A stretch of 33,142 nt of DNA from assembly GCA_029261775.1 (NCBI GenBank), contig JAJDAR010000344.1:1-33142 (forward strand), read 5' to 3'. A program made the translations under genes and the position numbers. The DNA comes from Deltaproteobacteria bacterium (GTDB lineage: Bacteria; Myxococcota_A; UBA9160; UBA6930). Positions 18 to 3,431 of the stretch are shown here, piece after piece (the stretch's first letter is position 1; each line of letters opens with the position of its first letter). Below the pieces are notes generated by a model that was given only the letters and a program-made list of their open reading frames with translations, ran no database searches and was not told the origin of the DNA.

Positions 18-137
18 CTAGAAGAGCGGCTCGTCGTCGGGAGCGTACGCGGTGATCTCGCAGGAGAGCGAGATGACCTCGAAGCTCGGCGGCTCGTAGG
101 CAGCCTGCTCGCGGCGCTCGGTGGGGTCGAAATCCAT
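18..137 (-). CDS. PqqA-like short peptide, candidate RiPP precursor (39 aa)
   Basis: Manual translation of the minus strand: MDFDPTERREQAAYEPPSFEVISLSCEITAYAPDDEPLF*. Has the Glu-x3-Tyr spacing (E27-ITA-Y31) typical of PqqA peptides. An AGGA Shine-Dalgarno-like element lies 8 nt before the ATG. Below the ORF track's length cutoff. Confidence 0.6.
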   Translation of the reverse strand: MDFDPTERREQAAYEPPSFEVISLSCEITAYAPDDEPLF

Positions 138-225
138 GGTCAGGATCCTAGCAAAAGGGTTCCGGGACGGGACAAGCGGAAGCCTGGGAACGGTTCACGG
201 AGGCGCAAGCCGGCCGGCCGAAGGG

Positions 226-1239
226 TCAGCGGAGCAGCACGTCGCAGCCGGTCCGCACCAGCCGCACCAGGCGACCCAGGGCGTTGTGCTGGATGTTGCG
301 CCGGGCGGCAACGAGCGCCCTCCGCTCCAGCGCATGCCGGGTCAGCCGCAGCTTGGAGGGGCCGGCCTTCCGGGGCTCGATGGCCGCGAGCGCCGCGCGC
401 AGCTCCGGCCCCGGCGTGCCCCAGCTCTCGAGGTCGGGGTCGGTCAGCCGGGCCACGATCTCGCGACACTGGACGAGGCGACCCTCGTCGCGGGCGAGCG
501 CGGCCGCCCATTTGTCGACCGAGGCCGTCGTGGGCCGGGTCTCCCGGCCCACGGTGACCGGGTCGCCGAGCCCGCGCGAGGTCTGCACCGGTGCCTCCTG
601 CTGCTCGCCGTAGTCGACCATGCCCGGCTCGAAGGGCAGACCGAGGAACTCGCAGACGGCGGACATCTCCCGCTCCGGCTCCTCGACCAGGCGCTCGTAG
701 CGCAGCGGGTGCAGGTTCACGGGTTTCTCCCGCAGGAACCGGGCGATGGCGGGGACGTAGCGCTCGAGAATCGGGTTGTGGGCATGGGCGGCCCGGTGGT
801 CGCCGTCGAAGAAGGAGTCGATCACGCTCGACCAGACGGCGACGGGGTGCCGGGTCAGCACGATGTACCGCGCGTCGGGATACAGCTTGGCCAGGAAGGG
901 CAGCACCAGCGCGTAGGCGGGCGTCTTGTCCAGGAAGTGGCTGCGGCCCGAAGGCGCGAGCGCGCACTCATAGAGATGGTCCGTTGCGGCCCGCAGGGCA
1001 TCGAGGTAGTCCTGCTCGCCCTTCGGGAGCAGCCCGACGAACTCGCGCAGACCGAGCTGGGTGATCACGGGGTCGTAGGGCGCCGCATCCACCCGATCGT
1101 GCAGGCCGAGGTGCGCCAGGGGCGGCATCAGGTGCGGCTCGACCGGCGCGAAGATCTGGGAGTGGGCGCCCAGCATCCGGGCGGTCAGCGTGGAGCCGGA
1201 GCGCGGCGCGCTGATCAGGAACACGAGCCGGTCTTGCAT
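226..1239 (-). CDS. Sulfotransferase family protein (PAPS-dependent)
   Basis: Translation from ATG at 1239: MQDRLVFLISAPRSGSTLTARMLGAHSQIF..., with 5'-PSB-like PRSGSTL and 3'-PB-like RYIVLTRHPVAVWSSV. GAGGA lies just upstream of the ATG; the longer ORF start at 1407 is low-complexity. Confidence 0.85.
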   Translation of the reverse strand: MQDRLVFLISAPRSGSTLTARMLGAHSQIFAPVEPHLMPPLAHLGLHDRVDAAPYDPVITQLGLREFVGLLPKGEQDYLDALRAATDHLYECALAPSGRSHFLDKTPAYALVLPFLAKLYPDARYIVLTRHPVAVWSSVIDSFFDGDHRAAHAHNPILERYVPAIARFLREKPVNLHPLRYERLVEEPEREMSAVCEFLGLPFEPGMVDYGEQQEAPVQTSRGLGDPVTVGRETRPTTASVDKWAAALARDEGRLVQCREIVARLTDPDLESWGTPGPELRAALAAIEPRKAGPSKLRLTRHALERRALVAARRNIQHNALGRLVRLVRTGCDVLLR

Positions 1240-2564: not shown

Positions 2565-3431
2565 ATGACCGACTCCGTTGCGCCTCGTTCCGATCTGCCC
2601 GGCACCGGGCCGACGCTCCGCGAAGGGCTCTTCCTCGCGGCGCTGCTGGCCGTCTTTGCGCCGGCGATCGCATCGATGGCGAGCATCTGGAGCACCTTCG
2701 ACTACCTCTCCCACGGCTACCTGGTGCCCGTCGTCTCGCTCTGGGCCTTCCTCCGTGAGCAGCCGCTGCGGGCCGGGGTGCCGATCCGCCCCGATCGACT
2801 CGGCGCTCTGTGGATCGGGCTCGCGCTGCTGCTGTATCTGGCGGGGCTGGCCGCGCGGGTCGTGAGCCTGCAGGGCCTGGCCCTGGTGCTGGCGATCGCC
2901 GGCGGGGTCTGGTTCCTGCGCGGCCCCCGTTGGCTGCGCGCCGCCGCCTTCCCGGTGGGCTTCCTGATCTTCATGGTTCCCCCGCCCTCGGCCTGGATCA
3001 CCCCGTTGATCGTCAAACTCCAGGTCTTCGTGTCGAGCGCCGCCGTCGCGGTGCTCCACGGTCTCGGGGTCACGATCGCGCGCAACGGGAACGTGCTGGC
3101 ACTCGCGAGTGGCGAGTCGTTGTTCGTGGCCGAGGCCTGCAGCGGCGTCACCTCGGTCATCACCCTGACGCCGCTCGCGGTCGTGCTGGCGGCGTACGTG
3201 CTGCGCGGCTTCCGGGCCCGGGCGCTGCTCGTGGTGGGCGTGATCCCCTTGGCGATGGCGGGGAACCTCGCCCGGGTCGTCGCGACGGTGCTGATCGCCG
3301 ATGCGCGCTCCGTGACCTTTGCGACCGAGGGGCCGCTGCACGATCTGCTCGGGCTCTCGACGTACGTGATCGCGTGCCTCGGCATGCTCGGGCTCGCGGC
3401 CCTGCTGCGCCGCGGCGAAGCCCGCGGGTGA
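2565..3431 (+). CDS. Exosortase/archaeosortase family transmembrane protein
   Basis: Hydrophobic multi-TM protein with the exosortase catalytic pattern: EACSGVTS (Cys), GNLARV (Arg), GPLHDLLGLSTY (His). ATG at 2565. Confidence 0.85.
   Translation: MTDSVAPRSDLPGTGPTLREGLFLAALLAVFAPAIASMASIWSTFDYLSHGYLVPVVSLWAFLREQPLRAGVPIRPDRLGALWIGLALLLYLAGLAARVVSLQGLALVLAIAGGVWFLRGPRWLRAAAFPVGFLIFMVPPPSAWITPLIVKLQVFVSSAAVAVLHGLGVTIARNGNVLALASGESLFVAEACSGVTSVITLTPLAVVLAAYVLRGFRARALLVVGVIPLAMAGNLARVVATVLIADARSVTFATEGPLHDLLGLSTYVIACLGMLGLAALLRRGEARG

Follow-up and report, generated by a model that had tools for sequence, protein, structure and literature searches.

Which product is made from a 39-residue peptide that is encoded at the very edge of a Myxococcota contig and carries a Glu-x3-Tyr unit? 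PqqA, which has such a unit, is the raw material for the bacterial redox cofactor PQQ. PqqD binds this peptide, PqqE crosslinks it, and its glutamate and tyrosine become PQQ (PMC10906245, PMC2294125). The preliminary description of this locus proposed either a true PqqA or, given its neighbours, the precursor of a PQQ-like RiPP.

An open reading frame at the edge of the contig

The window, i.e. the whole stretch of DNA that was analysed, is an entire contig of 33,142 bases, and it belongs to a genome (G000) of 578 contigs that is 93% complete. Read directly, the minus strand holds at positions 18–137 an ORF that begins with ATG (137–135), ends with TAG (20–18) and encodes 39 residues, MDFDPTERREQAAYEPPSFEVISLSCEITAYAPDDEPLF. 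Coordinates, start, stop and length are all as first described, and this ORF is very probably a divergent pqqA. Upstream of ATG 137 the frame stays open for another 19 codons, to position 194, and ATG 137 is the sole start codon that gives a product of 34–75 residues. Standard gene models miss this peptide gene. The contig ends overlap exactly over 129 bases, as positions 1–129 of the window are identical to positions 2936–3064 of a 3,064-base contig of the same genome (C200); the assembly break falls inside the candidate pqqA gene.

A spaced AGGA upstream of the start had initially been taken for a ribosome site. This AGGA sits within TTGCTAGGATCCTGACC-ATG and belongs to an extended -10-like box, TGC-TAGGAT (positions 145–153, minus strand), located 7 nt upstream of the start codon. 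Of 35 homologues, 25 have a TGCTA box, usually TGCTATA, a few nt before the ATG, while shuffles give a mean of 0.5 and a maximum of 4 in 500; the start codons were partly chosen by this box, which brings some bias into the count, and many of the sequences have only one ATG in range. Upstream of the homologues in loci L042–L061 and L144–L173, the TGCTATA-type box ends about 7–9 nt before the ATG. As a part of this conserved box, the AGGA is probably not a ribosome site. Judged from its sequence, the box is probably an extended -10 promoter element, and the transcript would start at or next to the ATG, i.e. be leaderless.

Conservation of the peptide subfamily

Relatives from the same order encode a peptide of 38–71 residues with the core [W/Y]xxPxFEVISLxCE[IL][ST][AS]YAPD..PLF, the N-terminal part being variable among homologues in both length and sequence. 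Of 61 relatives searched with the peptide, 40 gave matches at E<=1, and 31 of the 40 did so at E<=5e-4. A profile built from 21 homologues and run against the 91 genomes of the class matched 39 at E<=1e-12. When all GTDB species representatives were scanned with the core pattern, 30 loci were found, all of them in genomes whose titles read Myxococcota, Myxococcales, Deltaproteobacteria, Proteobacteria or uncultured bacterium.

All 36 distinct sequences share the Pro, Leu, Cys, Glu and Tyr of the core; the homologues behind this count were gathered with a pattern in which CE and Y are obligatory, and an independent profile search and alignment agree on the conservation of E27 and Y31. The two residues delimit Glu27-Ile-Thr-Ala-Tyr31 (positions 45–59, minus strand), which corresponds to the Glu-x3-Tyr unit that PqqE crosslinks according to the PqqA literature. 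That this motif stands in a PqqA-like context had been pointed out before, and E27 and Y31 are invariant in all 36 homologues. The C-terminal Pro-Leu-Phe (positions 21–29, minus strand) is particular to the subfamily, with PL present in 36 of 36 sequences and F in 34 of 36.

With a length of only 39 residues and HMM scores under the curated cut-offs, the peptide could be suspected of being a chance ORF without function. However, this explanation, to which we assign practically no probability, is already refuted by the order-wide conservation, by the invariant residues and by change that is biased to the third position. The mean differences per codon position are 0.23, 0.17 and 0.41 over the 36 distinct homologues, i.e. 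highest at the third. The checks initially proposed for the locus, a small ORF with conserved E and Y in relatives and a bias towards synonymous substitutions, have thus both come out in favour of a real gene.

Relation to known PqqA

A comparison with PqqA HMMs, also proposed at the outset, gave a divided answer. PqqA is the sole sensible family match of the peptide, but its scores are below both curated cut-offs, 13.3 vs 20 for TIGR02107 and 12.5 vs 21.1 for PF08042, such a cut-off being a threshold for annotation and not a biological property. No relative of the peptide was found among the solved structures searched. The product is a short ribosomal peptide with Glu-x3-Tyr, and an aromatic-x2-Pro and a hydrophobic stretch precede the Glu in the same register as in known PqqA, the Pro being invariant.

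A bridge is provided by G071, a genome from the sister order, whose operon-linked PqqA passes TIGR02107 (21.0 vs 20). Aligned by hhalign, the profile of the subfamily and this linked PqqA give a probability of 95% and an E-value of 2e-8, with Glu and Tyr in register. Since the peptide is under the PqqA cut-offs, has PqqA as its sole sensible family match and is bridged by a sequence that passes, we file it as a divergent variant.

Co-occurrence with PqqE and the pqq operon

Among the 91 genomes of the class, peptide and PqqE (TIGR02109) are both present in 37, the peptide only in 2, PqqE only in 7 and neither in 45. The association has a Fisher p of 5e-16, or 6e-7 with a single count per genus of the order; as the genomes are related, these p-values overstate independence, which is partly met by the genus count and by a within-genus case (g23) where one genome has both and two have neither. 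PqqE is thus found in 37 of the 39 peptide genomes, and a 38th carries PqqB and PqqC. The two genomes with only the peptide are G039 and the window's own, G000. In G039, a contig of 3,080 bases carries PqqB and PqqC at its end, and PqqE is missing there because it is cut off. In five PqqE-positive genomes (G010, G012, G060, G086 and G090) the peptide was not found, and three of the five are 76–85% complete. The PqqE-positive G024 and G071 do not have this subfamily; both have a linked pqqA instead. PQQ-dependent alcohol dehydrogenases over the cut-off are present in 72 of the 91 genomes vs 44 for PqqE, which suggests widespread scavenging of PQQ.

The operon in relatives consists of pqqB, a pqqC-pqqD fusion and pqqE, all over the NCBIfam cut-off where scanned, and it is without pqqA; in several relatives it is preceded by ileS. 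A motif search at twenty PqqE loci in relatives found no pqqA-like ORF; this search is narrow, as it missed the linked pqqA of G024, which was revealed by a TIGR02107 search of the genome and by reading the sequence. In G013 and G011, peptide and operon are on separate long contigs, so the peptide is unlinked to the operon. It would fill the pqqA gap of the operon from an unlinked site.

Co-occurrence with PqqE, pqqB-CD-E operons without pqqA and the resemblance of the profile to an operon-linked PqqA together lend good support to the first of the two initial proposals, a true PqqA. From these sequence comparisons, the ORF very probably (about 90%) represents pqqA in this Myxococcota order and would encode the precursor of pyrroloquinoline quinone. 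Our verdict on the peptide family is that of a divergent, unlinked PqqA subfamily.

Could the Glu-x3-Tyr unit instead give rise to a different PQQ-like RiPP, one that involves Cys26, which is invariant, or the PLF tail? Both features are nearly invariant here, and the HMM scores are under the PqqA cut-offs. However, the peptide co-occurs with a bona fide PqqE over the equivalog cut-off, plus PqqB and PqqC, and those PqqE loci are without another linked PqqA. Moreover, a Cys before the Glu is found in the linked PqqA of G024 (CEINCYA) too. A different RiPP is therefore unlikely. We would likewise attach little probability to the idea that Cys26 and the PLF tail point to an altered maturation route, in which the PqqE of the order handles an extra-modified precursor or makes a product related to PQQ but not PQQ itself.

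Loss in relatives and the genome of the window

The genus-mates G001–G004 are without PqqC and PqqE, and the peptide is gone in them, DUF502 following directly after the sulfotransferase. G052 is also without PqqC and PqqE; here a copy of the peptide survives in which the Tyr has become His and the W/Y-x2-P motif is lost. That the Tyr has decayed where PqqE is absent makes a neat natural genetic control. In the genus-mate G002 (L197:1418–2152) and in G008, a member of the same family (L198:1884–2543), a pqqB homologue persists next to ileS with neither pqqCD nor pqqE at its side. G003 and G005 also keep a pqqB homologue, and no PqqE or PqqC was found over the cut-off in these four genomes.

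In G000 itself, searches for PqqB, PqqC and PqqE found none in an assembly that is 93% complete in 578 contigs, the best of the distant radical SAM proteins reaching 59 bits vs a PqqE cut-off of 381. The genome encodes four PQQ-dependent alcohol dehydrogenases. A mis-binned contig was rejected as an explanation, the proteins of the contig being closest to the genus-mate G001 in most comparisons.

It is almost an even bet that the gene in G000 is an intact leftover, i.e. a family PqqA in a genome that has lost pqqB-CD-E and takes up PQQ from others. This concerns G000 only and is compatible with assigning the family to PqqA. The failure to find PqqB, PqqC and PqqE is in line with a leftover, as are the four dehydrogenases, the loss of the peptide between sulfotransferase and DUF502 in G001–G004 without PqqC/PqqE, and the ileS-pqqB remnants of G002 and G008. 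However, every invariant residue is intact in the G000 peptide, unlike in the decayed copy of G052, the assembly is incomplete and fragmented to the degree given above, and pqqB is gone too, though some genus-mates keep it. Because the invariant residues are all kept and pqqB is missing as well, we lean slightly away from a recent loss of the pathway and towards an assembly gap; the whole ileS-pqq stretch of G000 may be unassembled.

Neighbouring genes

The Pfam-scanned genes of the window are ordinary, i.e. sulfotransferase, GH1, exosortase, QueG, methyltransferase, GDPD, dCTP deaminase, aromatic amino-acid genes, an S1-domain protein, HU and others, and no RiPP maturation gene was found among them. 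To the left, C200 continues the contig with an EthD-domain ORF, a DUF502 protein and a sensor kinase-like ORF, and no RiPP gene was found there either. The proposed leftward extension has therefore not produced maturation genes, and the neighbours lend nothing to a PQQ-like RiPP. A local RiPP cluster was rejected for the scanned window genes and the joined left contig; the proximity of sulfotransferase, GH1 and DUF502 is a matter of synteny. The exosortase gene (PF09721; window 2565–3431, plus strand) adjoins QueG and is present in several syntenic loci.

The PF13469 sulfotransferase (positions 226–1239, minus strand) is in many loci the gene directly upstream of the peptide, in the same orientation, and acidic residues follow the Tyr, so one could imagine a secreted signal whose Tyr is sulfated by the adjacent enzyme, as in RaxX/RaxST. 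However, we consider this highly improbable. The peptide loci L042, L043, L046 and L057 have no sulfotransferase neighbour, genus-mates without the peptide keep the sulfotransferase at 72–81% identity, and the co-occurrence with PqqE would be left unexplained. The partnership is broken both ways, peptide without enzyme and enzyme without peptide, and the peptide does not qualify as RaxX-type; the sulfotransferase is judged a syntenic neighbour outside the system.

Proposed pathway

By analogy with established PqqA chemistry, the PqqD domain, here fused to PqqC, would hold the N-terminal part of the peptide, and the SPASM radical SAM enzyme PqqE would link Glu27 to Tyr31 through their side chains. 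The linked pair would then be released by a protease, and PqqB and PqqC would complete PQQ for the PQQ-dependent alcohol dehydrogenases. The pqqA gene would stand by itself, without linkage to the operon, and would probably have a leaderless promoter of its own.

The missing PQQ precursor gene would thereby be supplied for an uncultured Myxococcota order, in which profile-based annotation would report pqqB, pqqCD and pqqE without pqqA. The subfamily alignment is ready for a better PqqA model, and the subfamily helps to tell PQQ makers from likely PQQ scavengers.

Comparison with known systems

Our literature search found no paper naming both PqqA and Myxococcota; subscription papers are mostly outside its coverage, and an earlier mention is possible. 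Compared with PqqA as defined by TIGR02107 and PF08042, the peptide is similarly short and shares W/Y-x2-P, the hydrophobic stretch, Glu-x3-Tyr and the co-occurrence with PqqB, PqqC-PqqD and PqqE. It differs in the invariant Cys before the Glu, the APD..PLF tail, the longer and variable N-terminal part, the lack of linkage to pqqB-CD-E and scores that are under both curated cut-offs.

The mycofactocin precursor MftA is also a short peptide on which a PqqE-like radical SAM enzyme acts, with a proposed redox cofactor as the product; however, its core residues and maturase family are different, and MftA is clustered with its own maturase (PMC3023750). The number of pqqA genes can vary as well, with 3 to 12 copies in Methylophilaceae (PMC4109929). 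A parallel in gene arrangement is Methylosinus trichosporium OB3b, where an unannotated, highly expressed pqqA lies away from pqqBCDE and PqqC and PqqD are annotated as one gene (PMC3615186). That peptide is close to the PqqA of Methylobacterium, whereas the window peptide represents a divergent subfamily in another phylum. An unlinked pqqA is thus already known in kind, and what is new here is a divergent subfamily under the cut-offs that is apparently the sole PqqA of a Myxococcota order.
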